Assembly (NCBI GenBank): GCA_000697665.1
Contig: KL197717.1
Coordinates: 476,761-540,760 of the forward strand
Direction of reading: 5' to 3'
Source of the DNA: Jaapia argillacea MUCL 33604
Lineage: Eukaryota > Basidiomycota > Agaricomycetes > Jaapiales > Jaapiaceae
DNA: 64,000 nucleotides
Shown here: positions 1 through 24,720 of the stretch, in pieces
Layout of the letters: each line of letters begins with the position of its first letter
How positions within the stretch are numbered: the stretch's first letter is position 1
Notes under the pieces: model-generated
The model's database searches: none
The model's input: only the letters and a program-made list of their open reading frames with translations
Told to the model about the DNA's origin: nothing
Program-made: the position numbers and the translations under genes

Positions 1-1802
1 GTGAGCTTGCGGCTGACGTCCCAGGGAATGTTTCGGCCGCTCGTCCTGTGTCGACGCGAGATTCTGATAAGGGTGACGGTGGGCTATGTGTCCCATTGAC
101 CAATCGCTAAACCGAGATTCAGTTAATCCCGAGACTCGACAGCAGCAACCCCTTGTGGGTAATACGCACCCGACCCTCAAATGGACTGGACAACTGCACG
201 TTTTCAGAGTCCCAAGTCTTGATGGTGTCCGTCAATTCGTGATATCTCTCTTTCATACCATCATCGACATCATCGTCGTCGGCCTTATCAGCCTCCATAT
301 CCTGTAACTGCCTGATCCTTTCCTCGAGTTCTATCTGCTGAGCAAGGACTCGCTGCCCGAGCGTAGCAGCCTGCTGCAACTGTTTTTCCTTTCCATCTAG
401 GAGCGCCTGAAGCCGAAGTCTCATGTCGCCAATGGAAGGGGGGAGGTTAGTGGTACTACCTCCGTCTGTGGGATGTGCTATCTTCACCGCTCGTTGTGAT
501 TGTGTGGCCGCTGAGTTCTCTTTGACCAGCTTCTCTAGGTGATCATTTTTCTCCTTCGCCTGACGGATATCGTGTGCGCGGTCTCGTAGCTGGTCGGTCA
601 ACGCCAGAAGTTGGGCTGCTTGTGATTGCGCCTGCCGTTCAAGAGAGGCATTCTTCCCCTCGATCTCGCTCATTGCGGCTTCAAGCTTGTCCATTGATTC
701 CCGATGAGCAAGCCGACAGGATTCGAGCTCACGCGTCCGCTCGGAGCGCGCAGCTTGAAGTCGTGATTCCATCTGCACTTCCAAATGGATCTTCGCTGCT
801 TCAACGTGGCGGAACGATGATTCAACAAGGGCTGAAACTCCTTCGACATCCTTCTTCGTACGCAGTGCCGCAGCGTCTCCACGGACTCGGACCAAGCCCG
901 AAAGATGCCCCTCCTGCAGCTTCTGCGAGAATTCAACGGCATCTAAGCCCTGAACGCGACCCCCAACGACATCGGGTATTTCCAGTTGGAACTGCACCAA
1001 GTCGTTCGGAACACATCTAGCGAGATTGCTCCAAAGAGAGTAAACGAACCACCAGCAGTTGAACGTGTAGACATTGTAAAATGTCGATGAGGCGGTGATT
1101 AGTTCGAGAAGGGCGTATAAGACATGAGTGATCGAGGGCGGAGGGTTGGATTTTGAGGGTGGCGAGGACTTGGTCTGTATTTTTCACGAGATGTTCGGTG
1201 GTGCGCCAATGGTTACCGTATCCTTGCATCGATCACGATATTCTGGTGACAGCACAGATAACCACCAGGGAGCATCTCGCTCGAGACGGAGAGCTGTGCN
1301 NNNNNNNNNNNNNNNNNNNNNNNNNNNNNNNNNNNNNNNNNNNNNNNNNNNNNNNNNNNNNNNNNNNNNNNNNNNNNNNNNNNNNNNNNNNNNNNNNNNN
1401 NNNNNNNNNNNNNNNNNNNNNNNNNNNNNNNNNNNNNNNNNNNNNNNNNNNNNNNNNNNNNNNNNNNNNNNNNNNNNNNNNNNNNNNNNNNNNNNNNNNN
1501 NNNNNNNNNNNNNNNNNNNNNNNNNNNNNNNNNNNNNNNNNNNNNNNNNNNNNNNNNNNNNNNNNNNNNNNNNNNNNNNNNNNNNNNNNNNNNNNNNNNN
1601 TCTCCAGCACGATGATCAAATACTCGTGGGCTACGTTGCCCGGTGTCTTCCCCCATCTCATCTCCAGGATGGATAAGTGACCGACACCATCGTTCAACGC
1701 CACTTGAGAATTGGCCCACGAAATGTACTTTTCGACAGATATTTGGCCCCGGATATTAAATGTACGAGCGGATGGAAGGTCCGATATACTGGCGACACTC
1801 AT
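1..1802 (-). pseudogene. Copy A of the CWWF/coiled-coil family, fused to a NUM1 5' duplicate; broken and cut by the window start
   Basis: Start codon at 1802 by alignment with copy B (ATGAGTGTCGCC context). The N-terminal domain is followed by coiled coil and then by a segment matching the first exons of the NUM1-like gene at 19642: exon 1 match to about 170, a conserved GT...TAG intron (about 107-169), then exon 2 from 106 off the window edge. Compared with copy B, one base is missing near 1204 and one is added near 1111; translation from the start meets an in-frame stop soon after the first change. The changes lie close to the N run, so they could be consensus errors. The family has no name I recognise. 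The order is H-containing strand, then the NCWWF motif (hidden here between the two shifts), then helix. Called a pseudogene on the sequence as given. Confidence 0.72.
1300..1600. other. Assembly gap (301 Ns)
   Basis: All bases are N. In copy B the two flanks of this gap (ending gagctgtgc and starting ctccagcac) are contiguous at 7820-7835. The gap therefore probably hides little or no family sequence, unless an insertion sits there. Its length looks nominal. Confidence 0.95.
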
Positions 1803-2200
1803 TGATGATATACTAGGACTGAGGTGGACTTCGTATGTAGGTAAGCATGGATTGAAAAGCAGTGGGGGCTTACAAGCCTGGCAAGATCCGAGGGATCGCG
1901 AGGCGGTTGGAACTTCAGTTCGAGTTAGCAAGTGATTGGAATGACCACCAGAAAGATGGTAGGGAAATTGGGAATGTCGGTCTGAGTAAGAGGATGGTAG
2001 CGCTCGTAACGACACTATCTCTGATCAGAGGGCAGGGTTGCCAATGGACAGGACAGGCAGGACACCGTATAACTGGATGGAGATAGATACGTTTGGGTCA
2101 GGAGTTTCATCCACGGGTTCGATTCAGATGAATACTAATCGATCCGGCGCTAATCTTGGTCGCATACTTAGAGCCCATGTGGATATACCCACTACCGTGG
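1803..2200 (-). repeat. Conserved 5' flank of copy A
   Basis: Upstream of the copy A start codon. It shares long near-identical stretches with 8028-8410, 11195-11600, 14320-14715 and 18534-18960, including gctaatcgatccggcgctaa-like and ctatctctgatcag-like blocks. Whatever promoter the family uses should lie here. No known motif was recognised. Confidence 0.75.
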
Positions 2201-2995
2201 CCTCCATTCAGAAGCATACAGTAGTACTTTGCGTGTTCCTTTGCCCAATCTCGCTCGAGTGGATTTATGGAGTGTGTATGTCTTGGGTGAGTTGATTGGG
2301 ACCCATTTCGGATAAGACCATATGCAACGGGGCGCCGTGACGTGATGGAAGTAGTACCAAAACTTGAAGTTTTTGAAGGTAGGCCCTCGTCCGTCGAACC
2401 CCTCCGATAGCACACGAAACGGAGAAGGAATCCTCACCGTATCGCGTTTTGGTTAGCGCTAAAGCCGTCGAGTTCAGTGGTTTGTCCGAAGAGCCCGGAA
2501 AATGTCATGCCTTCCCTATTTTCCTCAAATTGCCAACCTGGTTCTGACGTGGGCAAGTCTCAGTGTCTGGTATGATTCACTCCCAGGCGTTCCATCTGAA
2601 GCCTTCTCGTTCCCAGATGGATCATTACTCATATATGTTGCTTTCTTCACCATCAGCGCGATCTGGTCGTTCTTCCGGCCGAGTATCTTCCCTAACCTTG
2701 ATATCCTCCGTCTTGGGCAGACGAAACCACCACCAACCTTGAAACCCACTTCTTCTGAGTAGTACGAATGACAGCTCTGAATCGCCGTTCGATCGGATTG
2801 GTTGGGTGTTTCTTCTATGGTCGGCATCTAGAAATGGATGCATACCCCGCCCGGTTTAGGGCTACAAACGAGGACACGGTAGTTGACGTTGGGATTGAGG
2901 GATGGCACAAGAATCGTATCGTCGAGATAGCAGATAGTGATCAAAACTGAAGAGACTTGGCCAAATTATTCCTGAAGACCCTAATCAACACGATA
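2201..2995. other. Gene-free stretch between copy A flank and the MFS gene
   Basis: Open frames of 60-100 codons occur on both strands, but none resembles a known protein or shows a convincing exon chain. It may hold 3' UTR of the MFS gene. Confidence 0.5.
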
Positions 2996-4555: not shown

Positions 4556-5653
4556 TTAAGAATGAATCCGCACAATATAACAGCAAAAGTGCTGACCTTG
4601 TGGAAGAGGAGTTTTACGAGTAAAGGGAGGTACGCATGACAGTTTGTTCTGTTCTGTGATGGTTTGGGCGGATGTTGGGATGATAGAGCTCGGACCCGTT
4701 AGGGCGAGCCCAGAAGGCGAGGAGAAAGACGATGAGACGGGGAGGATTAGGCCGTACATTGGGGATGTTGGTGAGAGATGGGATGGGGAGGAGGAAGGGA
4801 GGTTTGTATTGAGTGTTGGAGGGGCGTTGGAGAGGTGAGGGCGTTTGGGGTTTGGATTTATGGATGATGTGAGGGGTCGTCTGGGTGGAGATGGGGTTGC
4901 CTTTGGGGGTGAGGAGGATGTGGATGCTGTGGAAGGGGGCACGACAAGTTTGATTTTCTTCACAGTCGCAGAGTCTATTTGAGCATCATTACACATCGTT
5001 AGAGAGAGGACGGATCTGATGTTGGGTGGGATGAGAAAAAGGCTCACCTCGTTCCTTAGTACGATCGTGCTGTGACGGTCGAGGACCCTTGAGTTTGTTC
5101 AGTTCGTCTTTGAGAGCGGATAGTTGGTTCAACTGGACGACCTGGGTTTCAAGAGTCTCCTTGATGCTGTCTCGCTCTTCTTTGAGTACGGCATACTTGT
5201 GTTGCCAATCCTCAATTGTATCCTTGTCTGCTGTCAGGACATCAGAAGGGATGCCTTCAAGTGCCTTCGGACAGACGGTTGTAGAGCTGGTCGAGGCCAA
5301 GCTGATTCCTGATGTAGGGGAGACGGCGAACTAAACACGTTTGTGCACGGGGAAAAGGCAGGTCAGACATCCTCTCTCGCCTTTGTCAATTCCGAAACAA
5401 CCTGATCAAACTCTTCCCGTTTCTTACTCAACTTCTCCTCACGTTCCTGCACCTGCTTCTTCAAGGTTGTCTGCAAGAACTCTGACCCGTTCCGAAATGC
5501 TGCAAATCGACGATCGAGCTCTGCAAAGTCGCGTCGAGCCTTGGTTACTACTTTTGGCTTTTCGTGCTCGATGAGGCAGACGAGGATGTCGGTGCTTTGT
5601 TGGATTGCTGAGGATTTCGTTGGCGCGGATGGGGGAGTGGGTTTGGTTGACAT
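4556..5653 (-). CDS. Coiled-coil then proline/serine-rich protein of unknown function
   Basis: Start ATG at 5653 (MSTKPTPPSAPTKSS). Three exons are supported: about 5653-5366 (charged helix with KKQVQEREEKLSKKREEF), about 5317-5050 (second helix, VLKEERDSIKETLETQV, ending TKER at a GTGAGC donor), and about 4983-4556 (S/P/T-rich tail with SSSPPKATPSPPRRP). The splice between exons 1 and 2 uses a weak GTCTGA donor. The stop TAA at 4556-4558 directly abuts the first ATG of the truncated MFS frame, which is odd for two independent fungal genes and suggests a past deletion joining them. A piece of exon 1 is duplicated at 8449-8541 and 11113-11195. I do not recognise the protein. Confidence 0.55.
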
Positions 5654-6276
5654 GATGGCTATGTCTCAGATAACTTTGGCATGGTTTCGAAGAGTATATT
5701 AGGTTGGTTGAAGTTGAAGGAAAAGCGCGACGTCAAAAGTTGACTACGGCGTTTGCCGACGAACCTGTTCCTTCGTCCCATTATCTACTGTCGTTGAGAG
5801 TTCGAAATCCACAAAACGACAGTTCAACTGCTTCAAGAAGTGGGGCAACCACAGTGCAAAGGTTCGGTAACAGCCCAAACCACCAACCTACTAGCGAAGC
5901 CTCGTATTTTTTTGGTGAAATATACATTTATCACCGACCGTGTATGGCTACACCAACAACAAGTATGTCCCCAGGAGTTATTGTCGGTGGTCTGAAGTGA
6001 CGATCGCTAGGGTGCTGTAGGTATAGGGATAGTAAGTCCTGAGTAACACAATCCCTAGAAGCCAAACCAAGAACCTGTACCTGGTAGATTTCTCGATGTT
6101 AGATGTTTGTAAATATTCACCCGCCAGTCGTTGGCACGTCGCTTGCGTATCGAGTTCAGAGTTCTTGGGGACGGTTCCACTTCTCCTCGCTGAATTTGTC
6201 TGAGGAAAGTTGAGAACGCAGTACTTATATATATATCGGATATCATGGATAACGACGTACTGGTGTTCTTGTGTCC
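5654..6276. other. Spacer between the coiled-coil gene and copy B, with decayed NUM1 exon 4 sequence at its right side
   Basis: The left part should hold the promoter of the 5653 gene. The right part, read on the minus strand from about 6200 to 6080, still resembles the start of NUM1 exon 4 (acaaattcagcgaggagaa against acaaattcaaggaggagaa), so the NUM1 duplicate in copy B runs past the present stop. Confidence 0.6.
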
Positions 6277-8027
6277 TCAGGGAGATTCCCGCGCTTTCGA
6301 TCGTCTCTCGAAGTCCTCCTTTTCCTTTTTTATGTCTTTGATGACCTTGTCGTGTTCACCGAGCATGCTCTGTAGACGGCGAACCTCCGTCAACAACCCT
6401 CTCCCAATCTCGAATGCCAACTCTATAGGGATCTTGGGGTCTCCAGTGACTGACAGCACAAGGTCAATATTTACGCACCAATGTCGTCCTGGCGATCACC
6501 ATGCTTGGCCCGTGGTGATCTTGCGGCCGACGTCCCAGTGGATGTTTCGGCCGCTCGTTCTGTGTCGACGCGACCAGGGCCAAGAGGCTCCGATAAGGGT
6601 GCCGGTGGGGTATGTGTCCCATTGACCAATCGCTAAACTGACATTCAGTCGATCCCGAGACTGGACGGCAGCAACACCTCTTGGGTAGTACGCACCTGAC
6701 CCCCAAAAGCACTAGACAACTGCACGTTTTCAGAGTTCCAAGTCCTGATGGTGTCCATCAATTCGCGATATATCTCTTTCATATCCGCATCGATATCATC
6801 GTCATCGGCTTTATTAACCTCCATATCCTGTAACTGCCTGATCCTTTCTTCGAGTTCCATCTGCTGAGCAAGGACTCGCTGCCCGAGCGTAGCAGCCTGT
6901 TGCAACTGTTTTCCCTTTCTGTCCAGGAGGGCCTGAAGCTGAAGTCTCATGTCGCCAATGGAAGGGGGGAGGTTAGTGGCACTACCTCCGTCTGGGGGAT
7001 GTGCTATGTTCAACACTCGTTGTGATTGTGTGGCCGACAAGTTCTCTTTGACCAGCTTCTCTAGGTGATCATTTTTCTCCTTCGCCCGACGGATATCGTG
7101 TGCGCGGTCTCGTAGCTGGTCGGTCAACGCCAGAAGTTGGGCTGCTTGTGATTCTGCCTGCCGTTCAAGAGAGTCATTCTTCTCCTCGATCTCGCTCATT
7201 GCGGCTTCAAGCTTGTCCACTGATTCCCGATGAGCAAGCTGACAGGATTCGAGCTGACGCGTCCACTCTGAGCACGCAGCTTGAAGTCGTGATTCCATCT
7301 GCACTTCCAAGTGGATCTTCGCTGCTTCAACGTGGCGAAACGATGATTCAACAAGGGCTGAAACTCCTTCAACATCCTTCTTCGTACGCAGTGCCGCAGC
7401 GTCTCCACGGACTCGGACCAAGCCCGAAAGATGCCCCTCCTGCAGCTTCTGCGAGAATTCAACGGCATCTAAGCCCTGAACGCGACCCCCAACGACATCG
7501 GGTATTTCCAGTTGGAACTGCACCAAGTCGTTCGGAACACATCTAGCGAGATTGTTCCAAAGCGAGTAAACGAACCACCAGCAGTTGAACGTGTAGACAT
7601 TGTAAAATGTCGATGAGGCGGTGATTAGTTCGAGAAGGGCGATAAGACATGAGTGATCGAGGGTGGAGGGTTGGATTTTGAGGGTGGCGAGGACTTGGTC
7701 TGTATTTTTCACGAGATGTTCGGTGGTGCCGCCAATGGTTACCGTATCCTTGCATCGATCACGATATTCTGGTGACAGCACAGATAACCACCAGGGAGCA
7801 TCTCGCTCGAGACGGAGAGCTGTGCCCTCCAGCACGATGATCAAATACTCGTGGGCTATGTTGCCCGGTGTCTTCCCCCATCTCATCTCCAGGATGGATA
7901 AGTGACCGACACCCTCGGTCAACGCCACCGGAGAATTGGCCCACGAAATGTACTTTTCGACAGATAATTGGCCCCGAACATTGAATGTGCGAGCGGAAGG
8001 AAGGTCTGATATACTGGCGACACTCAT
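6277..8027 (-). CDS. Copy B: CWWF-domain/coiled-coil protein fused to the N-terminal part of a NUM1-like protein
   Basis: Start ATG at 8027. Exon 1 is 8027-6696; exon 2 6632-6479 and exon 3 6422-6277 keep the splice sites and phases of NUM1 introns 1 and 2, giving 543 residues. Residues 1-165 form the family domain: H59 in AHEYLIIVLEG and C149 in FNCWWFVYSLW. This His-then-Cys order about 90 residues apart, with Cys at a helix start, recalls permuted papain-like folds (LRAT/HRASLS), an inference only. Residues about 180-340 are coiled coil. From about residue 345 (IAHPPDGGSATNL) it matches the very start of the NUM1-like protein (MAHFSDGGGAAANL). Exon 3 loses frame relative to NUM1 near its end, giving the tail RRSKARESP. 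It is the only uninterrupted fused copy. Function unknown. Confidence 0.72.
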
Positions 8028-8410
8028 TGATGATATACTGAGGTGGACTTGGTATGTAGGTAAGCATGGATTGAAAAGCAGTAGGGGCTTACAAGTCAGA
8101 GTGATCAGGAGGTGGTTGGAACTTCAGTTCGAGTTGGCAAGTGATTGGAATAACCACCAGAAAGATGGTAGGGAATTTGGGATGTCGGTCTGAGTAAGAG
8201 GAGAGTAGCGCTCGTAACGAGACTATCTCTGATCAGGGGGGCAGTTAGGTTGACAATGGACAGGATACTGTATAATTGGATGGAGATACTGTAGATGGTA
8301 GCGGTCGTGCTCCCAACGTTGCCTCAGAGTTTGATCCACGGGTCGATTCAGATGAACACTAATCGATCCGGCGCTAATCTTGGTCGCATGCTTGAAGCAC
8401 ATTAATACAC
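8028..8410 (-). repeat. Conserved 5' flank of copy B
   Basis: Matches the flanks of copies A, C and D and the orphan flank E. It begins directly upstream of the start codon with gaggtggacttggtatg and ends near gcgctaatcttggtcgcat. Confidence 0.75.
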
Positions 8411-8448
8411 ATCACCGTTGCCTCCATTCCGGTCAGACGCATACACTG

Positions 8449-8541
8449 GTTTGTCAATTCCGAAACAACCTGATCAAACTCTTCCCGTTTCTTGCTCAAC
8501 TTCTCCTCACGTTCCTGTGCCGCTTCTTCGAGGTTGTTTGT
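8449..8541 (-). pseudogene. Left half of a duplicated exon fragment from the 5653 coiled-coil gene
   Basis: Near-identical to 5390-5482, encoding KLSKKREEFDQVV. The match stops at the TIR element at 8544 and resumes at 11113. The source gene has no insertion here. Confidence 0.85.
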
Positions 8542-8543
8542 AA

Positions 8544-11112
8544 CATCAGGAGAAACCTCCCACCCTAACCTAAAGTAATTGAGTTCCATTAGTCCTAAAT
8601 GCCCGCTAAAGGAGTTCTTGCAACTAATTCTAACTAATCGAAACTTTCAGAGGCTGAGTTCAACTAAGGTGACTAGCTACGGATAGATACATCTAGAAAG
8701 GGTGCATGTCTGAGCCAATACTGTAGATATCCATCCGAAATCATCTGGCTGTTGATATCGGTAGTCTGTATGAAGTCATAATAGTGTCGGTATGACGGAC
8801 GGCCGATTACACAGAGGATGCCAGTGAAGCACCAGCGAATGACGGTGACAGTCTAATATACAGCGAGTCTTTAATATCGCCCAACCGCCGCTGTCGAGAC
8901 TGCCAGGGCACCAGATAGGGTTAAACCTGAGAGACAAGATAGAAAATTGACATGAGAACGCAAGGATACCGAGAAGTCGACGAGGGGCGACGACGTACCA
9001 GCAGACACCAATAGCACTATCGAACCACCAGCGCAGCAGAAGCGAACGCTTCTGGACCTATCTTGGATTTCTGGGTACGCTTTTAGACCTCCGACTGGAG
9101 CTTGAGTTCCACGGCGTGGTTGGCCATCATCACCAGGCGGGCGTAGCGACCGCCGGTGATCTGGATCTCTTGACCATTGGGTGGTGTGGGAGGCGATGCC
9201 GAAACGGCGGGGGACGTCATTGAGAAGTTGGTGATCGGGTATCGAGGGTGAGCGGGGGCGTAAAGTCATTTTTGGGGTGACGAGGGTCGTAGGCTATCTT
9301 GACGGGAACGGGGGGAGGTGGTAACGGGTTCTGGAGGGGCTTGGGTGGTGATTTCTGAGCGCTTATGGGGATGACTGGTACTAAAATGGTGTTCGATTCG
9401 AATGGCCGAGTGGGCTGTTCAGAAGGACGAGGGAGTAGATGTATGTCGGGTAGGGACCAGGACTGACGAAATCTTTCTTCATCTTCCCCTCGAACTCTGC
9501 CAACATCGCCGGTTCCATATCCAACTCCCACTCTAAATAACTACACATACCCCACTCCATCTGATTCATCTCCCTCAACCGATACAGATTCTGCCCGATG
9601 ATAGTCCACGACTTATCCGAATAGGTGTCGTCGCAGATGACTTTTGAACGCAGTAATTATGTAGATGATGGTCCCCGAACGGCGGGGAATTGAACTTTTA
9701 GGCGCTGTAAAAGACATAGCGCGGCGAAAGTTACCAAGTGTGTAGTCGAGTGGGCAAGGGGAGAGGAGAGCATCGGGGCTGTAATGTAGAGGGCGGTGGC
9801 GGCGGCAGCGGCAGATCGGGATACGTAGACAAATGTGTTACGAGAAGAATTCAGCAGGGGTTGGATCCCGGGAAAGCCCCAGGGAGTGCGCATATCGAAC
9901 CTGAAGCATCCAGCGTTACGGACTCATAGTCGAGCGAGCATGCAAATTCGCCAAGTCCTGAGAATGAAGCGGAGCTTGAATTGGGTTGGTTGAATGTCGG
10001 GAGCTTTTGCCAGCTCATCTCTCGCCATGTCTTCTCTCGCCGTATCGTTATCAACGACGATGCCATGTCTCCTCTCTTCTCATCGACGACGACACTACTG
10101 CCGATTCCCTTACCTCGACGTCGGGACCATTAAACCTCCTCACTAATGTCCCCCCGGTTGCAAGCCTGTGCGATGTAACACTACGCAGTTGAGTTCTTAG
10201 TTTGACTGTCTACCCGCCCCATCTCCTCGCGTATTTGGGTAACATTGATCACAGCAGGTGGCTGGCAGGATATCTCCAGTCCGAGCGGCAGCTCGCGCCC
10301 CATCCTTTCGTTTCCCTGTGCGCTGCGGTACGTGAATTTTCTCGTGTCAGTACCTTACATCTCCTCTAGCTGTGCCCTTCCCCTTGCCGTACATGCAAGG
10401 TCACCACGATTCATGGGTGATGCTTACCATGGGATTTAGCTTGTATCTGGTACGTTGACCCCGCCCCCAGTTTCTGAGACTCATAACATGGTGCTCATTG
10501 TCATCAGAGCCTACCCCTATTATTGTCATCCCTTTGATCCCAACCGCTGAGTCAACGCGGCAACCATACCTGGTAAGTGTTGGCCTTGTTTGCCACAGTG
10601 TCCATGCTAATTTTCATGCCGTTGTAGGCGCTTCTAATCCCAAGTCGAATTAGTCTCATAGCCGATATGTGTACGTTTCTCTATGTCATTTCGTATAATT
10701 CCATTGACTGATACTCCATTCTATCACGCAGTGCTGCCATACCCATGCCGCCTCTGCCATGTTGTTTGGTCTGGAATATTTTGACTTGTGGTTCGAGTTG
10801 TGTTGGGTTGTCGTTGAGGTTTGGTGACTCCAATAACATACTCTGTAGTGCCCTATGTATTAGCTATACTTAACAATGAGAATTACTTTGATTCCTCCCG
10901 CGTGCTTGGCATGGATTATTGCGTGGTTACCTGCAAGAAACGGAGAATAATTGTCCGCTCATGGGTGCCTAAGCCAACTAAGCCAGCTAATTGGGGACGA
11001 TTAGGAGGGAACTTATCTAATTAGCACTAATCAACTTATCAGGCTAATCGGGGCTTATTGGAGCTATTTAGATATAATTAGGTCTAATTAGGGCGGGAGG
11101 TTTTTCCCGATG
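8544..11112. mobile_element. Non-autonomous TIR element, 2.57 kb, carrying host-derived fragments
   Basis: The ends are inverted repeats: CATCAGGAGAAACCTCCC on the left and, reverse-complemented, CATCGGGAAAAACCTCCC on the right, both continuing into (A/G)CCCTAA. Sub-terminal regions are rich in AATTAG/CTAATT words. Insertion is proven by comparison with 5460-5500, where the interrupted exon is continuous. The flanks suggest a target duplication of about 2 bp (AA), not certain. No transposase is visible. The inside holds a cyclin-like fragment (9155-9895) and an exon-like chain (10370-10795). The superfamily cannot be named from these ends alone. Confidence 0.75.
9155..9895 (-). pseudogene. 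PCL-type cyclin fragment inside the TIR element
   Basis: Read on the minus strand: FVYVSRSAAAAATALYI, LLQRLKVQFPAVRGPSST, SKVICDDTYSDKSWTIIGQN, LYRLREMNQMEWGMCSYLEW, FEGKMKKDFVSPGPYPTYI, then a P-rich tail. This is the order seen in fungal Pcl1/2-like cyclins (Pho85 partners) between the middle of the cyclin box and the C-terminus. The family residues that normally link the second and third pieces (HRLFISAFMLA-like) are absent, an in-frame stop lies there, and the C-terminal tail changes frame near 9217. The N-terminal part of the cyclin box is missing. It is a captured, decayed fragment rather than a working gene. Confidence 0.72.
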
Positions 11113-11195
11113 AAGAACTCTGACCCGTTCCAAAATGCTGCAAATCGACGACCGAGCTCTGCAAAGTCACGTCGAGCCTCAGCTGCGACTTTTGA
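11113..11195 (-). pseudogene. Right half of the duplicated exon fragment from the 5653 coiled-coil gene
   Basis: Matches 5483-5565 (encoding RRDFAELDRRFAAFRNGSEF) with a few changes. It then switches abruptly into orphan flank E at about 11195. Confidence 0.85.
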
Positions 11196-11600
11196 GAGGT
11201 GGGCTTGGTATGTGGGTAAGCATGGATTGACAGAGAAGCAATGGGCCCGGTTTACAAGTCTGGCAAGATCCGAGCGAGGTGGTTGGAACTTGAGTTCGAG
11301 TTGACAAGTGATCGGAGTGGCCACCAGAAAGATGATAGGGAAATCGGGAATGTCGGTCTGAGTGAGAGGAGGGTAGTGCCCGTAACGACACTATCTCTGA
11401 TCAGAGGGCAGTTAGGTTGACAATGGACAGGATACCGTATGATTGGATGGAGATACTGTGGATAGTAGAGTGTGTGTTTTGGGGTCGTGCGCCAAAAGTT
11501 GCCTCAGAGTTTGTTCCACAGGTCGATCTGGCAGAATCAATCCGGCGCTAATCTTCGATGCATACTTAGAGCACATACATTACAGTTGCCTCCATTCCAG
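11195..11600 (-). repeat. Orphan family flank E, no coding copy attached
   Basis: Aligns over its length with the 5' flanks of copies A-D (gaggtgggcttggtatg, ctatctctgatcag, aatccggcgctaatctt). The start codon and body of the gene it once served are absent: its gene-proximal end runs into the 5653-gene fragment. It marks a lost fifth copy. Confidence 0.75.
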
Positions 11601-11700
11601 TCAGATGGGGACGTTTCGACGGCTCGTTCTGTGTCCCATTGACCAATCGCTTTCCCGAGATTCAGCAGACTCCTGTTGGACTCCTGGACGACAGTTATCC
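11600..11700 (-). pseudogene. Remnant of NUM1 exon 2/intron 1 downstream of copy C
   Basis: The plus-strand words acgtttcgacggctcgttct and tgtcccattgaccaatcgct match the NUM1 exon 2 duplicate in copies A (about 35-107) and B (6541-6633), with a deletion between them. Copy C therefore once carried the same NUM1 tail. Confidence 0.65.
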
Positions 11701-11959: not shown

Positions 11960-14319
11960 CTAACCAATCTTATATTCATACCTTAATGGACTGGAGACTT
12001 GGACCTGCGGCTTGTATGTTCTCCCTGTCCTGGGCCAGACATAATCTCCCCTGAGCCAGACATTGACTTCCTCAGGCCAGACATCGTCTTCATCATCATA
12101 TTGCTTTCTCTTTGACTCCCTTTGCCACCAAAGATAGCCTTGTTCCAGGTGTACCTTCACTAAGGGAAAGGGGCGACCAGTTCTAGTTGACTTTGTCGCC
12201 GGCCAATCAAGGGCAGCATTCTTTTCCTCTCTCTCCTTTTGCTGAAGTTTGCCTTCTTCCAGTTCCTCCTTCTCCCAATGTCCACAGTCTCCACTGGCTT
12301 GTAGCTGGTTCATTAACTCCATTATCTGCCGCTGAAGGACAGCAATTGTTCTCTCTAATTCCTCCTTCACCCTACGTCCATTCTCCTCACAGTTTTGCAG
12401 CTTTGTCAACTCCATTGTCTGCCGTTGCAGGGCATTATTCTTCCCCTCTATCTCCTGTTGTCGAAGTTTGCCTCTTTCCAGATTCTTCTTCATCTGGTGT
12501 CCATCATCTCCACAGACTTCCAGCTGGCTCGTTAACTCCATCATCTGCCGTTGAAGAGCAGCAATCATTCCCTCTAACTCCTTTTCGCGAAGCTTGCCTT
12601 GTTCCAGTTTCTCCTTCATCTGGTGTCTATCATCTTCACTGTCTTGTAGCTTCGTCGTCACCCGGCGTTCATAATTTAAACTGGCTTGCAGCCAGCTCGC
12701 TAACCCCATCTTCTGCCGTTGAAGGGCAGCATTCTTTTCCTCTATCTCCTGTCTCTGAAGCTCGCCCTCGTCCAGCTTCTGCTTCATCTGACGTCCATCT
12801 TCTTCACTGCCTTGCAGCTTGGTCGTCAACTCCATTGTCTGCCGTTGAAGGGCAGCATTCTTTTCCTCTATCTCCCGTCGCCAAAGCTCGCCCTCATCCA
12901 GCTTCTGCTTCATCTGATGTCCATCTACTTCACTGTCTTGCAGCTTGCTCGTCAACTCTGCTATCTGCCATTGAAGGGCAGCATTCTTTCCCTTGATCTC
13001 GCTCAGGGCTGTTTGAAGCGTGGCGTCTGATTCCCGATGAGCAAACTGACAGGAGTCGAGCTCACGCGTCCGCACTTCTAAATCGACCTTTGCTGCTGCA
13101 ACATGGCGGAATGATGATTCAACGAGAGCTGAAACTCCTTCAACATCCTTCTTCGTATGCAGTGCCACAGGGTCTCCGCGGACCTGGACTAAAGCAGCCA
13201 GGTGCCCTTCCTGCAGCTTCTGCAAGAATTCAATGGCATCCAAGTCCTGAGCGCGACCTGGAACTGATGAAGATCTAATGAAGCGACTGGTTAGAAGCGC
13301 ACAGGCGGTGAACTCAACGTCTGTACAAAGAGATAAATCCTCAGACAAGGCTTGTAAGACTTGATCTATTAGAAAGCTAAATACCTGTACAAAGAGATAA
13401 ACTACAAGACAGGTTAGTCCAGGAAGTACATAGGATCATACAAGAGACTTACTCCTCAGACAAGGCTTGTAAGACTTGATCTGAGGAGCTGAGGACGCAA
13501 CCCACACAGTTTATATAGACTACAGAGAATAGCATGACATCATAGAAAGAAATGCATAGAAAAGGGTAGAAACTGTGATCGCACAATACTGAGCAAGGAT
13601 GATGCAAGGATGGGCAAAGGATTGCTCTATCTACTGACTAACTATCTTACTCAGCTACCTACCAGATGACATCACGCTGACTGAGACTGTGTAAGTCGCA
13701 TTCTAGCAAGTTCCGTCAAGGACAAGCAGCGCGCCTGTGACTGTGACATCACATGATGGTGACATCACACTGCTTCAACAGGAACAACCTCGGGTATTTC
13801 GACCTTGAACTGCAGCAAGTCGTTCGGAACACATCTGGCGAGATTGCTCCAAAGAGAATAAATGAACCACCAGCAATTGAACATATAGACATTGTAAAAT
13901 GTCGACGAGGCGGTGATTAGTTCGAGGAGGGCGATCAACCATGAGTGATGGAGGGTAAAGAGTGGGATTTTGAGCGTGGCAAGGACTTAGTCTTTATATT
14001 TCACGAGATGTTCGGTGGTGCCGCCAATGGTTACCGTATCCTTGCATTGATCGCGAACTTCTGGTGACACCACAGACCTCCATGAGGGAGCATCTCGCTC
14101 GAGACGGAGAGTTGTGCCCTCCAGCACGAGGATCAAATACTCATGTGCTACTCTGCCCGGTGTCTTCCCCCACCTCATCTCCAGGATGGATAAGTGACCG
14201 ACACCATCGTTCAGCGCCTCTGGAGAATTGGCCCACAAGATGTACTTGTCGACAGGTATTTGGCCGCGAATTTTGGATGTGCGAGCGGAAGGAAGGTCTG
14301 CGATACAGGCGACACTCAT
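11960..14319 (-). pseudogene. Copy C of the CWWF/coiled-coil family, interrupted, with an expanded coiled coil
   Basis: Start ATG at 14319. The N-terminal domain is recognisable (AHEYLILVLEG, then FNCWWFIYSLW). A stop codon stands where copies B and D have Gln (KYKD-stop against KNTDQ, about 13990), and a solo LTR (13265-13780) sits after the domain. Beyond it the frame stays open to 11960 and encodes about 7 tandem units of roughly 42 residues built on EIEEKNAALQRQTMEL and QMKQKLDEGELQ. Copy D has only three 21-residue units and copy B a single one. The C-terminus (WPEEVNVWLRGDYVWPRTGR) is unlike the other copies. The whole gene is broken, but its 3' half is a 462-codon open frame starting within the LTR. 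Confidence 0.75.
13265..13780 (-). mobile_element. Solo LTR (fossil of an LTR retrotransposon), 516 bp
   Basis: Flanked by a 5-bp direct repeat GGAAC (13260-13264 and 13781-13785). Read on the minus strand it starts TGTTGAAGCAGTGTG and ends TCA. Comparison with copies B and D shows the host sequence continuous at this point, so the insertion is clear. A TATA-like CTATATAAAC lies near 13510 on the minus strand. No internal region remains, consistent with LTR-LTR recombination. The Copia or Gypsy family cannot be decided from the LTR alone. It is younger than copy C; no age can be given without a second LTR. Confidence 0.85.
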
Positions 14320-14715
14320 TAATGGTATACTGAAGACTGACGTGGACTTGGCAAGTAAGAATGGATCGAGAAGAAACGGAAGCTTACAATGATCTAAAGA
14401 TCGGAATGCGAAACGGTTGGTACTTCGATCCTAGTAAGCTCGAGTTGGCAAGCGATTGGAATGACCACCGAAAGATAACAGAGATTGGGAACGGTCGTAA
14501 GGTTTGACAAGGACAGATGCTGGTAGGATGTACACCGTATAATTAGGTGGAGTAGAACATACGGTTTGGAGCCGTGCTTCAAACACTGCCTCGAGTACTA
14601 ATCGATCCGGTGCTAACCAAGACCGCATGATTTGGTCGTATGTTTGGTGCTCATGTGCAACGCTCACGTGCAGTGCATTAGTTCCTTGCATGGTGATCAC
14701 AGTCATCATTGCGAG
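14320..14715 (-). repeat. Conserved 5' flank of copy C
   Basis: Aligns with the other family flanks (taatcgatccggtgctaa, catgatttggtcgtatg) and stops where the inverted-repeat element begins. Confidence 0.7.
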
Positions 14716-14720
14716 CCAGC

Positions 14721-17051
14721 TACGGTAGGTGGGCCATGGGACGGCCGAGGTTCAAATTCGTTTCAGGTCGAGCATTCCAAGTTCGACCCTGGCTGGGAAC
14801 CTAACCAGGATGAATATTTATTTCTCGTGCTGGCATTTGATGGGTCAACCAGGGGCTGGGGGCTTAGATCTCGACTTCGAGAGGTTGGTTGTATTGTAGC
14901 CAGTTGATGTATCATAAAATGCCACAAAAATCACAAAAAAGCGATTTTTATCATGTCATTCATCAAGCAGGGATGGGGTGGAGCTGTTTATTGAGACTCT
15001 GGCTACAGTACAGTTGCTGGTGGTAATTGAGAAAGAGAAGAGGAGAGATAGGGCCGGGAAGGAGAGGATATGGAGGCTGGGAAGGGGCAGGAGGGGCAGT
15101 AGGGGCAGTAGGGAGGAAATGGAGGAGGTGGAGAGGGGAGGTGGAGAGGAGAGGAGGAATGGGAGGAGGAGAATAAGAGGAGGAGAATGAGAGGAGTGGA
15201 GAGGGGGGTAAGAAGAGGAGGAAGGAGGAGAGGTAGGGACAAATAGGAAATGGGGAGAGTAGGAGGGAAGGAAAAGCATTGGTGAGGAGGGGGATTAGGG
15301 AAGAGGAGTGGAGTAACGGGGTGTTAAATGGGAATGAATGGTCAAAGGGAAGGGGGAGAGAAAACAAGGCAGAAGGGTATAGAAGGGGTGGGGGGATGAG
15401 GTGTTGGATTTCGGAAAGGGGCAGGGAGGGAGATGTGGAGGTGAACATACCTCGTCAAAATATTTACAGCATTCCTCTCACTTCAAGGATCACATAAAAC
15501 AAGCTGATATCTCCGAAAAGATTGCGAGCGCGGTGATCAACAACTGAGGGGGCAGCGTGACAGGAGTTGAGAAGGTCAAGGTCGATTGACATGCTAACAG
15601 AGGGATAGTGGTCGAATAATGCATAGAACCACCCGATGAGGGAGATTCTATCTCTACCTGACGGGGAGTAGGCAGACATTGGAGGGTGGGCAGTCTCGAC
15701 GGCGAGGGCTCGGCAGCGCGGAACAGTCACCAGTATAACAACTCCGGATCGTGGATGGAGGTTCGCGTCATCTCACGGAAGATAGGGAGAGTAGCATTGA
15801 TATTGTGTGGCGGGGAGGTCGTCGTTGTCGTCGTCATCGTTGTCGTTGTCATTGTTGTCGTCGTCATCGTTGTCGTTGTCGTCGCCGATGCAAGCTGTTC
15901 AGCGTAGTCGATGCCTTCCGAGTCAGTACGGCAAAGAAGGCACTCCAAATAAGGAAGTTGTCACCGAGATGTCAATCGTCACGGTTCTTCTCGTTCGACA
16001 ACGGCAACGACGACAACCACATGTGCAGCAATAGGTGCCAACGCCACTCTCGTCGTTTCTCGTCGACCACAGTGATCACTGCATCGCACGCTCCGACCAT
16101 CCCTTTCAACTACCGCGAAGACATCTAACCACCTGCCGCCGACACCGCGCCATTCGCCAACCAATCGTCGTGAAGTCCCTCAGGCCAGGCTAACAGATCC
16201 GCCACCCATATTGGTCCCTCCGGCACGGTCGCCTGGACGCAACACACTACGCCGTCTCGCTGTCTAGTCCGTCGCACACGACCCGAATTCCCGCTGCAAC
16301 GAATGGAGCATTTCCAGTGCCTCGAGAATAAGCTTGATGGGTGGAGGTAGATGAATCGATTATGGTGTGTTTAGAGAATTTGAATGTAAGTTCATCTCTA
16401 CATCCCCCTCTCTCTTTCTCCAACTCCCCTCCAACCCCATACTCCCATGTTTTCTCTCCCCATTTTCTTTGCCCTTTCATTCTCCTCTCTGCTCCCATTC
16501 ATTCACATTTACCACCCCATTACTCCACTCCTCTTCCCTAATCCCCCTCCTCACCAACCCTTTTCCCTCCCTCCTACTCTCCCCATTTCCTATTCGTCCC
16601 TACCCTCTTCCCTCTCCTCCTTCCTCCTCCCCCCCCTCTCCACTCCCCTCATTCTCCTCCTCCCCTTTCCACCTCCTCCATTTCCTCCCTCCTCCCCTTC
16701 CCAACCTCCGTATCCTCTCCTTCCTGGCCCTATCTCCACTCTTCTGTTTCTCAATTACTATTAGTAACAATACTGTAGCCAGAGTCTCAATAATCAACTC
16801 CATCCATCCCTTGCTTGATGAATGACATGATAGAAATCGCTTTTTTGTGATTTTTGTGACATTTCGTGATACATCGACTGGCTATAATACAACTAACGTC
16901 TCGAAGTCGAAAGCTAAGCCCCCAGCCTCTGGTTGACTCAGAAAATGCCACACGAAAATGAATATTCATCCGGGTTAGGTTCCAAGCAGGGGTCGACCGT
17001 GGAATGCTCGACCTGAAACGAATTTGAATCAAGGCCATCCCGCCTACAGTA
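14721..17051. mobile_element. Long-inverted-repeat element, 2.3 kb, with purine-rich arms of about 0.7 kb
   Basis: The left arm, 14721 to about 15452, is the inverse of the right arm, about 16386 to 17051. Shared outer words are TACGGTAGGTGGG/TACTGTAGGCGGG, ttcaaattcgtttcaggtcg, gctgggggcttag and cacaaaaatcacaaaaaagc. Within the arms about 400 bp is nearly pure purine on the plus strand at left (15020-15440) and pyrimidine at right (16390-16740). The centre is 15453-16385 and holds a microsatellite and unassigned frames. It sits between flank C and copy D, and no transposase is visible. It looks like a foldback or MULE-type non-autonomous DNA element. A target duplication could not be fixed. 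Confidence 0.75.
15822..15893 (+). repeat. GTC/GTT trinucleotide microsatellite
   Basis: About 24 units of gtcgtt/gtcatc-type triplets in the centre of the inverted-repeat element; they would read as poly-Val/Ser/Thr in different frames. Confidence 0.9.
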
Positions 17052-17186
17052 CCGTACCAACTATTGCATGATACACATTCTCAATTCGACAGTATTTGAT
17101 AGGGTGTGATACAAACATGCGAAACAATTCGCCCGTATTAGGTGTACTTTCCGCTGGCTTGAGTGACGATGCTAAGGTCTGAATTC

Positions 17187-18533
17187 TCAAGGTGTTCCGG
17201 GAGTCAGGAACCTGTCGAAACGCTGATGCACTTCCCTAGGAGTGATTTTGGGGAGCGGGATGGTAGGTAATGGAAGGGCAGTGGGGGGGCAGTTAGCGGT
17301 GCTGCGGCCGTTCGACGAACGTGCCCTGCGTCGTGGTGGTGCAACTGCTAAGCTCCCTTGAACCATCTCCTCCGAGCGATCATTTCGCTTCGTCCAGGAT
17401 GTATCGCGTGCACGGCCTAGTAGCTGGTTGGTCAACGCCTGAATATTGGCTGCTTGTGATTCCACCTTCTTTCTCAGGGTGGCATTATTTTCCTCTATCT
17501 CCCGTCGTCGAAGTTCGCCTTCTTCGACCTGCTGTTTAAGGGCGGCATTCTCTCCCTCTATCTCTCGTCGCCGAAGTTCGCCTTCTTCCGCCTGCTGTTT
17601 AAGAGCGGCATTCTTTCCCTCTATCTCCCGTCGACGAAGTTCGCCTTCTTCCAACTTCTCCTTCATCCGGCGTCCATCAGCTCTACTCTCTCGTAGCTGG
17701 CTCGTGGCTGCTTGAAGCTTGCTATCTGAATCCCAACAAGCTATCCGGCAGGAGTCGAGCTGATGCATCCACTCTAAGCGCATAGGCCGAAGTCGTGATT
17801 CTATCTGCATGTCCAAAGGGATCCTCGCTTCTGCAAAGTAGCGGAACGATAATTCAACAAGAGCTGAAACTCCTTCAACATCCCTCTTCGTACGAAACGC
17901 CGCAGGGTCTCCACGAACTCGGACCAACGCAGACAGATGCCCTTCCTGCAGCTTCTGCGAAAATTCAATGGCATCCAAGCCTTGAGCGCGACCCGGAACA
18001 ATATCGGGTGTTTCAACTTGGAACTGAACCAAGCCGTTCGGAACACATCTGGCGAGATTGCTCCAAAGAGAATAAACGAACCACCAGCAGTTGAATGTGT
18101 AGACGTTGTAAAATGTCGATGAGGCGGTGATTAGTTCGAGGAGGGCAATAAACCATGAGTGATGGAGGAAGGAGGGTTGGATTTTAAGTGTGGCGAGGAC
18201 TTGGTCTGTATTTTTCACGAGATGTTCGGCGGCGCTGCCAATGGTTACCGTATCCTTGCATTGATCGCGAATGTCTGGTGACACCACAGACTTCCATGAG
18301 GGAGCATCTCGTTCTAGACGGAGCGCTGTGCCCTCCAGCACGAGGATCAGATACTCGTGTGCTACTCTGCCCGGTGTTTTCCCCCATATCATCTCCAGGA
18401 TGGATAAGTGACCGACACCCTCGTTTAGCGCCCCCGGAGAATTGGCCCACGAAATGTACTTGTCGACAGATATTTGGCCGCGAACTTTGGATGCGCGAGC
18501 GGAAGGAAGGTCTGATATATTGGCGGCGCTCAT
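17187..18533 (-). CDS. Copy D: intact CWWF-domain/coiled-coil protein without a NUM1 tail
   Basis: Start ATG at 18533 (MSAANISDLPSARASK), chosen by alignment with B and C although the frame stays open further upstream. One exon, 448 residues. H59 in AHEYLILVLEG and C149 in FNCWWFVYSLW are conserved. Three perfect-phase 21-residue units (EEGELRRREIEGKNAALKQQ) lie about residues 280-345 within a longer coiled coil. The C-terminal 90 residues are basic then proline-rich (PTALPLPTIPLPK) and replace the NUM1-derived part seen in A and B. It lies head-to-head with the native NUM1-like gene with 1.1 kb between starts. The family is unnamed to me. A cysteine-hydrolase or transferase role is possible from the His/Cys pair but not shown. 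Confidence 0.75.
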   Translation of the reverse strand: MSAANISDLPSARASKVRGQISVDKYISWANSPGALNEGVGHLSILEMIWGKTPGRVAHEYLILVLEGTALRLERDAPSWKSVVSPDIRDQCKDTVTIGSAAEHLVKNTDQVLATLKIQPSFLHHSWFIALLELITASSTFYNVYTFNCWWFVYSLWSNLARCVPNGLVQFQVETPDIVPGRAQGLDAIEFSQKLQEGHLSALVRVRGDPAAFRTKRDVEGVSALVELSFRYFAEARIPLDMQIESRLRPMRLEWMHQLDSCRIACWDSDSKLQAATSQLRESRADGRRMKEKLEEGELRRREIEGKNAALKQQAEEGELRRREIEGENAALKQQVEEGELRRREIEENNATLRKKVESQAANIQALTNQLLGRARDTSWTKRNDRSEEMVQGSLAVAPPRRRARSSNGRSTANCPPTALPLPTIPLPKITPREVHQRFDRFLTPGTP

Positions 18534-18960
18534 TGATGGTATACTGAGGACTGAGGTGAACTTGGTATGTCGGTAAGAATGGATTGAAAAGCAGTGGGGG
18601 CTTACAGGTCTGGCAAGATCTGAATGCGAGGTGGTTGGTCCTTCAGTTCGAGTTGACAAGTGATTGGAAGGGCTACCAGAAAGATGGCAGGGAAATTGGG
18701 AATATCGGTCCGAGTAAGAGAAAGGTAGCACGAGTAACGACACTATCTCTGACCAGGGGGCAGTTAGGTTGACAATGGGACAGGATACTGACTGGCAGGA
18801 CACCGTATAATTGGATGGGTAGAACATGTGTTGGGGTCGTGCTTCAAACGTTGCCTCAGAGTTTGATCAGCGAGTCGAACCAGATGAATGCTAATCGATC
18901 CGGCGCTAATCGACACCGCATGATTTGGTCGCATACTTGGACCCCATGTGTAAGGTGAAG
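18534..18960 (-). repeat. Conserved 5' flank of copy D
   Basis: Matches flanks A, B, C and E. It is probably part of the divergent promoter region shared with the NUM1-like gene. Confidence 0.75.
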
Positions 18961-19641: not shown

Positions 19642-22600
19642 ATGGCCCATTTCTCAGACGGCGGCGGCGCCGCCGCTAATCTCTTTTCTTCAACTGGCGA
19701 CATGAGACTCCAACTTCAGACCCTCCTAGACCGAAAGGAAAAACAGCTGCAGCAGGCTGGCACGCTCGGGCAGCGAGTCCTTGCACAGCAGATGGAACTC
19801 GAAGAAAGGGTCAGGCAGTTACAGGACATGGAGGCTGATAAGACCGATGACGACGATATCGATGCGGATATGAGAGAGAGATATCGCGAATTGGCGGATA
19901 CTATCAGGACTTGGGACTCTGAAAACGTGCAGTTGTCTAGTGCTTTTGGGGGTCAGGTGAGTACTATCCACGAGGTGCTGCCGTTGTCTTCTCTGGATTG
20001 ACTGAATATCGGTTTAGCGTTTGGTTAATGGAACACATACCCCACCATCACCGTTATTGGAGCCGCTCGACCTTGGTCGCGTCGACACGGAACGTGTTGC
20101 AAACACATCGACTGGGACGTCAGCCGCGCAGTCACGACGAGCCAGGAATGCTGCTCATCGGCAGGACGACGTTGGTGCGTAACGTTGATCTTTGGGTTGT
20201 CAGCCAGGCGAGACCCTAATACCCCCCATAGAGTTTGCGTTCGAGATTGGGAGCGGACTGTTGACGGAGGTTCGACGTCTGCAAAGTTTACTCGGTGAAC
20301 GCGACAAGGCCATCCAAGACATGAAGGAGGAAAAGGATGACCTGGAGAAGACGGTTGAAAGTTTGAGGACCGCCCTGAGGACTCAAGAACAGAGTGCTGG
20401 TATGTCTTCATCCATATGCTCTGATACTCCCTTCTCAGCTTGCTACAGACAAATTCAAGGAGGAGAACTGGAACCTTGAAGTAACTCTCCAAGAGCTCCG
20501 AACCCAACTCACCGATACCCAAGCGACCAGCCAACGACTTGAAGGTGAACACAAGCGCCTAACAAAGCAACTCAACGTCTCCCGCGAACAAGTCGACCAG
20601 CACAAGAACGAATCCGAACGGCTCAAAGTCCAGTACGACGAGCTCAAAGCCAAACACGAAACCGACGTCGCCCACGCTCGGAAACATGCTGCGAGTTTAC
20701 AACGAGATAAGGCTGATTTACAGTCGAGTATCGATTCGCTAAAAGCTGAAGTGGCCAAGGCGGGAAGAAGGCTACCACGTTTTGGTTCCCCTCTAACGCC
20801 GAATGGTGACCATAACAAGTCTCAGATGGTTACACCCGATATGCGCGACGACGACGACGTCTTTGGTACCACTGGAGGTGCATCTACTCGGGGGAGGAAG
20901 TTCGACAATGGCGCATTGTTCCCTCCAGATGGCTTTGATCCTGACTCTTCACCCGAGCCTTCCCCTTCGAAACCTTTCATCGCTCCCAATCACCCGAGCA
21001 ACGAGATTGAAACGTTGCAACGACAACTCGCCCATGCGCAGAGACAGATCGGAACTCTTAAGGGCACGTTACAGAGGGAGAAGGAGACTAGGATGGAGTA
21101 TCGACGGAAATTGGATGCTTCGCCTGGTGGGATGCCTTTGGGACCCGAAGAAGAGGAGGAGATGGAGGAGGATATGGATGATGTGGAAGAGATGGGTGTG
21201 TTACCGAAGCCCAAAACGAAAGTCACTCCATTCCGAGCGACGAGAGGGAGAGGACGTGGGAGGGGTAGAGGAGGGCTCACACTTGCGCAAAGACTTGGTA
21301 TGGCGGCGAATAGTCCGGCGTCAGAGTATAATGATGATGAAGATCTCGCTGAAGTCACCGTTACACCACCACCACCTCTCCCTGCACTCTCTACCAGCCT
21401 CCAGGATATCATGTTTGATGAAGCGGAGGAAGATCAGGACGAAGAAGTTCAGCAGCGGTCAATTGGAGAACAGTCACCTACCCCTTCGAATCGCGTTAGC
21501 GTGGATGGGATGGACCCGGCCTTTGCGAATGTCCTCAAGCGTACTTCGTCGACAAGTTCCATTCCACCCCAATTCAGCCCACTTCGTCAAAGTGTTGTTG
21601 CTCGCGGCGCTCGTGGTGGTGGAACCGTTGGTCGTCGGAATAGAGGAGGTGCTGCGTTCCAAGAAGTCAGGCCTCCGTCGTTGGTCGGTCAACCAGAGGC
21701 TTTGGCTGATGAGATGGGATTGGGATCGTTTGCCGCCGAGTCTGATGTGACCTATAGGCAATCGGTGACTACGGTTGAGTTTGGTGTGCAGACTGATGTG
21801 GTTGAGGAGCCTGTTGTTGTGCTCACACCTCCTCCTGTCGCCCCTGAACCTGTTGTGGAACTGGTACCCCCTCCACCACCCCCGCCACCTGCTCCTATCA
21901 TGGCAGAAGTTGCCATCCAGGTCGACCCTGAACCTGTTCCCGAACCAGAACCTGTTGTTGTCGCACCCCCTCCTCCACCTCCGATCGAAACGCATGAGAT
22001 GAATATCCAGACTGACGAGGAGCCTGTTGTCCTGCGAGTCGAGATGGGAATGCAGCATGACGCTTTCGTGCCCCCACCAGTTGCTCAGGCTTCTGCTCAA
22101 GTCCAGACTGATATTGCTCTGACTCTGGATGTTGATACCCAAACGCCACCTCCTTCATCGCCTACCCGATCCGATGCTCATATGCAAACCGATGTTCCCC
22201 CCACTCTATTGGGCGAAAGTCGTCGTGCGACTGTCACACAAGCCGATTTCTCGAAATTCTCTTTGGTTGGTGATTCGACGATTACTGGTCGACCGAGCTC
22301 TGGTATCATGCTCGAAGAGGACGAGGATGACATTGACGATGGTGCGACGGAGACTGGAGCTGAGGATGATTATCATGATGCTCGCCAGAGTATCGCTTTG
22401 ACGACGCCGACGAATGATAGTGACTTCCACTCGATGTACACCGTCACGGATCAGGATTTCTCTGACGACGACGACGAGAGCATCAAAGCTTCTAGGATAT
22501 CAAGTCGACTTGGTGCTGCTACACCTTCTTCGTTCCAGGATTCTTCTGTTCCACCTACTCCTATTGTTGAGTATGACGAGAAGTCGGTTTCTGTAGAGCC

Positions 22601-24720
22601 TCCTCCACCTGAGCCGGAGGCACCCAAGCCCGAGTTGAAGGAGATTTCCATTCAGACGGATGAATGGTCCCCACCGCCTCCCCCCACGCCACCTGTCATC
22701 CCTGCACCTGTCCCCATTCCGATCGCAGTTCCGCCAAGTCCCTTCAAAGCAGTTGCGAATTCACCCCAGCAGTTCCATTTCATCTCTCCGCCTTCTTCTG
22801 CTGGGCCTGCCTCCCCGTCGATACCCATCGTACCGGCGTCTGCGATACGAGATCTCAATATCACTCGTCCTCGTACTTCCCAGTCGGATCGCAGACGTTC
22901 CATCGAGTCGGCGCTTTCGTCTATGATGGATGATAGTACCCCACGTTCACGTGTACCGTCAGCTGTTGCTTCGCCTGCGGTAGACAAGACTCGACCGCCC
23001 ATGATGGCTCTCCCACCACCCCCTCGAGCTCCCCCGCCCCCCGGCAGTATGGCACCTCCACCATTTATCCCCGAAAGGAGGATGCTGACTACTTCAACTG
23101 GTTCCCAAGAAATTCCCCCGCCCCGACCGACTTCGCCTCCACCCCCAGAACTCATCCAACGCGCAACAACACCGACATTCGGTTCTGCCTTGGCAGTGCC
23201 TGGTCGAGGGTTGGGACCCCGACAACATGGATCCAGTTTACCACCCTCTGCTCAGCAAGCCTTGGGACCTCGACCGTCCACCAACAGTTTCCGTTCTGCT
23301 GCCAATGCTGCTACCCATGCTCATCACGGTATGGCGAGTCCCGCCGCCCTGGTCGCTTTTGGTCGCAGAGAGTTATCCTCGACGTCTCTCAACTCTGAGC
23401 GTAGTGGTGGTTCTCAGCGTTCTTCCATGTCTTCAGACCACTTTATGGAACGATCACAGCATGGACATGGTGCTCCACCTACCACACCGGGACGAGCTGC
23501 TGATACGTCCATGCAGACCAATGGTGGTGGTTCTACGGATCCTGCTGTCATTCACTCCATCACACAGACCATGATCGGGGAGTTCCTGTACAAGTATCAG
23601 AGACGGGCGATTGGGAAGGGGTACGGGGAGAGACGACATCGGAGATTCTTCTGGGTTCACCCCTATACCAAAACTCTCTATTGGAGCTCTGCCGATCCAG
23701 GATCATCAAATGTTGCAGAGTCGAGTGCAAAGAGTGGTAAGTGTGGTCTTGCGTGAAGTTGTTTTCTGCGCTCAACATCTGCCACAGCATATATCGAGGG
23801 CGTTAGGTCAATACTGGACCCCAATCCCATGCCCCCAGGGTTGTACCAGTATAGCGTCGTGGTGTCAACGCCAAATCGCGAAATGAAGTTCACCGCCCCA
23901 ACCAAGGAGCGCCACGATATCTGGTTAAATGTAGGTACTTTGGAATTTTCGACTAGTTGTTTGTCGTTAACAAGCTTTGTTACAGGCTCTGAAGTACCTC
24001 CTTTCTCGTCCAAACGCCATGGCTGTCGCGTCACCTGGAAATGCCACCGTTGGACCATCAGCTCCCCTCAGCCCCATGTCAGTAGAAGCTGACCTCCCAG
24101 AAGGCGAAAACGGCAATCCTCTTATGGCGAGTCCTCAGAGTTTTCGGAGTGCCCGGAGTGGTCATACTGAAGCCAGCGCGGACTCATGGAACCATACACC
24201 TCGTGGACGCAGAAGTCAATCCCAACTCTCCGCCCGTGGTTCTGTTGGTAAACGTGCAGGGACACCCGCGGCAGAGTATCTCCGGTGGGCGGGATCATCT
24301 GAGGAACCGCTGAGTCCCACGAAGTCATTTGAACACATTCCAGGACAAGATGACGAGGGTCTTGATTTTGAACTTCACGACGAGACAATGTCTGATGGAG
24401 GTTTCGAAGGTTTAGAGAACGTGAGAGCCTGTTGCGAGGGTCGACACACCGTTGGTCGAGCTGGGGGCCGAGGACACCATCATCATCACCACCATCACCA
24501 CAGCCACCCACCCACCAACCACCATCTGGACGTCAACCCTTCTGATCTCGCCCGTCCGATATCCCCATCCGCTTGGTCCTTCCGCTCAAGAGAAAGTTCA
24601 CGGTCCCGTGACGGCAAAGGTTTCTTCTCTTGGGGAAGGGAGGAGGGCAAGCGCAGATTCGGTTCTCGACGATCGACGAAGACTGTACCCACTACAAGTA
24701 CCGCAACACACAACCAGTAA
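19642..24720 (+). CDS. NUM1: Num1/ApsA/Mcp5-type cortical dynein anchor with C-terminal PH domain
   Basis: Six exons: 19642-19956, 20018-20174, 20232-20399, 20449-23736, 23788-23930 and 23986-24720, all GT-AG with phases that agree; 1601 residues. The N-terminal about 300 residues are coiled coil. The middle is disordered, acidic and proline-rich with repeated QTD-type motifs (21786-23522). The C-terminal PH domain starts at IGEFLYKYQRRAIGKGYG, continues through RRFFWVHPYTKTLYWS and ends at KERHDIWLNALKYL, matching the Num1/Mcp5 PH subfamily, which binds phosphoinositides at the plasma membrane. Known homologues tether dynein and mitochondria to the cortex and position nuclei. After PH comes a tail with nine consecutive His and RS-rich stretches. 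Its 5' exons are duplicated in copies A and B. Confidence 0.9.

Follow-up and report, generated by a model that had tools for sequence, protein, structure and literature searches.

The 5′ part of a NUM1-type gene is joined in frame to a CWWF/coiled-coil gene in the basidiomycete Jaapia argillacea MUCL 33604, giving a chimaeric open reading frame of 543 codons. The window analysed here comprises 64,000 nucleotides of contig KL197717.1 (positions 476,761 to 540,760; coordinates below are those of the window). Four recognisable CWWF/coiled-coil copies (A, B, C and D), all on the minus strand, were detected by blastn to the left of a NUM1-type gene, and the array proposed in a previous sequence-only reading was thereby recovered. 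The locus clearly exemplifies a chimaeric frame derived from the gene of an organelle tether, whose introns and splice sites came with it; the same array displays decay by frameshift, truncation and insertion. The array probably goes back to one old fusion, which would have arisen by partial duplication of NUM1, been amplified in tandem and is now decaying.

The native gene (19642–24720, plus strand) consists of exons at 19642–19956, 20018–20174, 20232–20399 and 20449 to approximately 23736, followed, within the PH region, by two introns that are short. Spliced with one choice for the last two introns, whose exact sites are not unique, it has 1601 codons. Its earlier designation as a NUM1-type gene was confirmed by the Mcp5-type PH domain (Mcp5_PH, PF12814) which Pfam detected in the C-terminal part (E = 1.8e-47, 160.9 bits, cut-off 25). 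At the N-terminus the Pfam coiled-coil matches were all below their curated cut-offs, and a sequence search of the PDB gave no credible match (best E = 0.027, a coiled-coil fusion). The part encoded by exon 1 is helical in the model of the homologous tail of copy B.

The chimaeric reading of copy B (6277–8027, minus strand) is made up of exon 1 (8027–6696), intron 1 (6695–6633), exon 2 (6632–6479), intron 2 (6478–6423) and exon 3 to the stop codon at 6279–6277. Spliced with the two NUM1-type introns the frame is uninterrupted over 543 codons, as opposed to 460 unspliced, and both its length and its coordinates reproduced the earlier reading exactly. The splice sites had been said to be kept; the GT...AG ends of introns 1 and 2 are indeed present in B and the boundary 6696/6632 agrees. 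The CWWF domain (codons 1–200) and the coiled coil belonging to this gene (to codon 340) occupy 7008–8027 (minus strand), and the match to NUM1 begins directly after them at codon 341. Two recognisable parents are thus found in one open frame. The placing of the join at the NUM1 start codon held as well, as B matches NUM1 from codon 1, and ATA replaces ATG in both A and B. Since A and B have this same join, the fusion appears to be older than the split between them.

The NUM1-derived tail of B (6116–7007, minus strand) runs from NUM1 codon 1 into exon 4. In blastn, 6116–7011 aligned with 20549–19638 (77.9%, 740 bits, E = 0.0), and the homology extends past intron 2, through exon 3 and into exon 4 (to 20549). 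Compared with NUM1, exon 3 of B lacks 1 nt, which causes the frame to stop soon after, within the exon-3 part of the tail, and leaves B without a PH domain. The CTAAT preceding the NUM1 acceptor, assumed here to be the branch site, is lost from intron 2 of B. Modelled from three sequences, the B tail was predicted to form helices (mean pLDDT 65.8 over 151 residues, block pLDDT 57–75), with the fusion point as a loose linker ahead of them.

Three copies had been thought to carry NUM1 sequence from exon 1 to intron 2, which stands for B only. Copy A (1–1802, minus strand) has the CWWF domain, the coiled coil and a NUM1-derived tail, and is cut in exon 2 by the edge of the window. Its tail (1–481, minus strand) comprises exon 1 to position 170, intron 1 (169–107) and a part of exon 2 that carries a 12-nt in-frame deletion; 9–438 aligned with 20127–19688 of NUM1 (81.4%, E = 3e-121, blastn). 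Copy C (11960–14319, minus strand) is broken by a nonsense codon after codon 110 and by a 516-bp insert, and its coiled-coil repeats are expanded. The insert (13265–13780, no strand assigned) has TG...CA ends and GGAAC on both sides, a structure that suggests a solo LTR.

The tail remnant previously noted at C is real, with the limitation that it amounts to only about 60 bp (11607–11665, minus strand), containing the last part of intron 1 and fragments of exon 2. It was detected by blastn through a 36-bp match to A (92%, E = 2e-9) and an overlapping 27-bp match to B (89%, E = 2e-4). Next to it lies what is left of a fifth CWWF copy, an upstream region that lacks a gene body (11196–11605, minus strand), with 79% identity to 8040–8437 and, over 11196–11553, 78% to 18553–18911. 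The remnant (11607) abuts this upstream region (11605), as expected for a tandem of fused units. Copy D (17187–18533, minus strand) is an open frame of 448 codons.

The history of the array may be depicted as follows: A partial duplication of NUM1, from the start codon into exon 4, would have become fused, in frame, to a CWWF/coiled-coil gene at its 3′ end. Promoter, CWWF gene and NUM1 tail would then have been amplified together, head-to-tail, to at least five units. Decay would now be in progress, with C and the fifth copy broken, D truncated just past the join and B retaining an open frame that ends early within the NUM1 part. If translated, B would have, from the N-terminus, a domain with no known fold, then a coiled coil and then the NUM1-derived tail, helical and lacking the PH domain.

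One alternative is a later capture, with D as the original form without a tail and the NUM1 piece gained by the lineage of A, B and C after D had split off. This is close to what the sequence-only reading had proposed, with a capture in three copies and D lacking the tail; the head-to-head orientation of D and NUM1 was confirmed, but the absence of a tail is not clear, since approximately 50 nt past the join align with A and B when anchored. With the alignment anchored at the ATA codon, an anchor picked after the alignment had been seen, none of 2000 shuffles was as good as the match between D and B over 45 or 60 nt. Anchoring with nine more bases gave p = 0.001 (45 nt) and p = 0.0005 (60 nt), and longer windows of 75 and 100 nt were weaker (p = 0.0015 to 0.01). 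The anchored comparison of D with A over 60 nt was likewise unmatched in 2000 shuffles, and that of D with NUM1 gave 0.005. By unanchored local alignment, however, the end of D was not significantly similar to B (score 30; mean 24.6 and maximum 40 in 300 shuffles) or to NUM1 (score 24 against a mean of 24.6). The blastn alignment of D ends before the join, and no recognisable NUM1 sequence was found by it in D, as a later capture would have it.

The order of divergence bears on the same question. Scaled as neutral, the divergence between NUM1 and B (1.17, 187 codons) exceeded that between B and D (0.76, 339 codons), and 3 of 100 bootstraps failed to keep this order. The short non-coding stretches agree with this order (NUM1–B intron 1 0.24 and intron 2 0.39; B–D promoter 0.18). 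For the coiled coil alone the B–D divergence was 0.94, near the NUM1–B value, which speaks for the later capture. Furthermore, the identity between A and B is a mosaic, with 97–100% beside the gap in A and 85–93% in the tail, and gene conversion may therefore distort the order. The anchored match past the join and the greater NUM1–B divergence together favour, moderately and by two modest tests, that D probably lost a tail rather than never having had one. A capture after the split of D is accordingly rather unlikely, and one fusion before that split, with loss in D, is to be preferred.

A single fusion followed by decay may be compared with a second alternative, by which B would be a functional chimaera, its NUM1 coiled coil having been recruited to target the CWWF protein to mitochondria or cortical NUM1 clusters. 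The open frame of B, its retained splice-site letters and the predicted long helices behind a loose linker would fit such a use. The gaps in the exons point the same way: among A, B and NUM1 they measure 3 or 12 nt up to the frameshift, after which not all are multiples of three, and this keeping of the frame speaks slightly for earlier constraint on the tail. The coiled coil of yeast Num1 is reported to be both necessary and sufficient for mitochondrial localisation (PMC12033498), and fission yeast Mcp5 is described as tethering mitochondria via its coiled coil (PMC6829665). The review cited for yeast Num1 (PMC12033498) also notes, however, that binding of mitochondria is hard to predict for individual homologues and that the mechanism of lipid binding is unknown. 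The loss of CTAAT before the acceptor of intron 2, with its assumed role as branch site, and the missing PH domain argue against a functional chimaera; without that domain, binding by B would be limited, at best, to mitochondria or NUM1 itself.

Selection on the tail was estimated with a codon model allowing for transition bias, fitted to three branches (A, B and NUM1) over exons 1 and 2 (139 codons). On the A and B branches omega was 0.99, with the same likelihood as neutrality and a range of about 0.5–2; of those tested, values up to 0.4 and from 3 upwards were excluded. The branch joining A and B to NUM1 gave an omega of 0.26, a value that mixes the native gene and the stem. The raw pairwise Ka/Ks against NUM1 for exon 1 (A 0.30, B 0.26) includes the branch of the native gene, and as evidence of constraint on the tail it was therefore set aside in favour of the three-branch fit. 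Between A and B, Ka/Ks by the Nei-Gojobori method without transition bias was 0.54 (0.23–1.22) in exon 1 and 1.10 in exon 2. Polarised changes in exon 1 numbered 18 specific to A (11 replacement, 7 silent) and 9 specific to B (6 replacement, 3 silent). The earlier reading had named neutral substitution in the NUM1-derived part of B as refuting its idea, and this applies in part: the A and B branches jointly fit neutrality, and the changes in B are too few for a test of B alone. Hypermutation of duplicates was also considered and discarded, as C>T and G>A changes at CpG made up 4 of 13 among those specific to A and 2 of 7 among those specific to B, which is no strong bias.

The NUM1-derived tail gives no clear sign of maintenance by selection, and the estimates lean against its use; it would seem not to be needed. 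Recruitment of the tail for targeting is consequently unlikely. A bolder form of it would make B a working protein whose CWWF domain, a fungal domain as yet without a name and perhaps a cysteine enzyme of the permuted papain-like kind, is brought to NUM1 clusters or mitochondria by a NUM1 coiled coil without a PH anchor, there competing with or modifying the native anchor. We regard this as very improbable. If true, the moving of mitochondrial targeting onto a new protein would matter.

The CWWF part of the array differs from the tail in this respect. For codons 1–200, B against D gave an omega of 0.46 (lnL −1091.8 against −1096.2 for neutrality, 2ΔlnL = 8.7), and a 120-codon stretch in A, B and D gave 0.41 (lnL −679.0 against −683.2). 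Omega was 0.79 for codons 1–110 in B, C and D, 0.75 for B and D over all 339 codons and 1.17 for their coiled coil (codons 200–340). Such uneven constraint on the front domain weighs against the preferred reading; by these values it would seem to be concentrated in the latter half of the CWWF domain, which holds NCWWF.

Copy A contains a run of Ns (1300–1601), and B has no extra sequence at that place. Over one stretch of 114 bp adjoining the gap A does not differ from B, and three single-base indels between the two copies lie less than 200 nt from the Ns (indels were listed for B positions 6600–8028 only). The left flank, almost the same as B but with single-base indels, points to a possible fault of assembly at the gap, although gene conversion would account for the flank just as well. 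That the whole array is an artefact of collapsed or misjoined repeats, for which the Ns, the flanking identity and these indels could be cited, is very improbable, as B has no gap, the copies differ by roughly 3–25% outside the gap flank and their tails by 18–30% from NUM1, and inserts and repeat numbers are unlike.

Some further elements were observed in the window. An insert of approximately 2.57 kb (about 8543–11113) with inverted ends CATC[AG]GGA[AG]AAACCTCCC looks like a DNA transposon and separates 8450–8543 from 11113–11194, the two parts of a fragment of the gene at about 4950–5654. Between C and D lies a pyrimidine-rich fold-back element (14738–17041) with inverted arms of 79% identity over 613 columns (blastn). 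The frames 36657–37747 and 61102–61845 are similar (44–61% protein identity), opposite in orientation and by appearance encode membrane proteins; blastn also detected inverted repeats at 36363–36737/62249–61873 and at 50727–50852/51297–51172 (126 bp, 86% identical). Within the window no Rfam family reached its gathering threshold and no tRNA was found by ARAGORN in its bacterial setting.

For the CWWF domain, none of the family libraries searched gave a match. Sequence searches of the PDB gave no credible relative (best E = 1.9 for the domain, 0.92 for its profile and 0.29 for the motif stretch), and the domain of D gave 15 pattern matches each in viral and prokaryotic contigs, of which 0 were confirmed. 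An AlphaFold2 model built from six pieces of the window was unusable (mean pLDDT 36.4), the alignment offered no conserved stretch fit for searching and a literature search for NCWWF gave no match. The order of a conserved upstream His (AHEYL) and the motif NC..F (NCWWF) presumably recalls the circularly permuted papain-like enzymes (LRAT PF04970, C97/PPPDE PF05903 and C92 PF05708). LRAT, C97 and C92 are grouped among the permuted papain-like families (PMC10318531). The CWWF domain differs from them in that Pfam listed no family for it up to E = 5, including LRAT, C97 and C92, in a search whose HMMER filters drop most weak matches, and in the lack of a credible PDB sequence relative.

With the Num1/Mcp5 cortical anchors the gene at 19642–24720 shares the C-terminal Mcp5-type PH domain, whereas B holds approximately the first three exons' worth of that gene behind another domain and no PH domain. 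A CWWF–NUM1 fusion was not found among the titles and abstract openings listed for Num1, ApsA/Num1 and fungal chimaeric genes. Chimaeric genes can arise by partial duplication of a neighbouring gene. The array resembles such genes in that part of a nearby gene, with its introns, is joined in frame and amplified in tandem, and it differs from them in having broken copies and an acquired part that appears to evolve neutrally.
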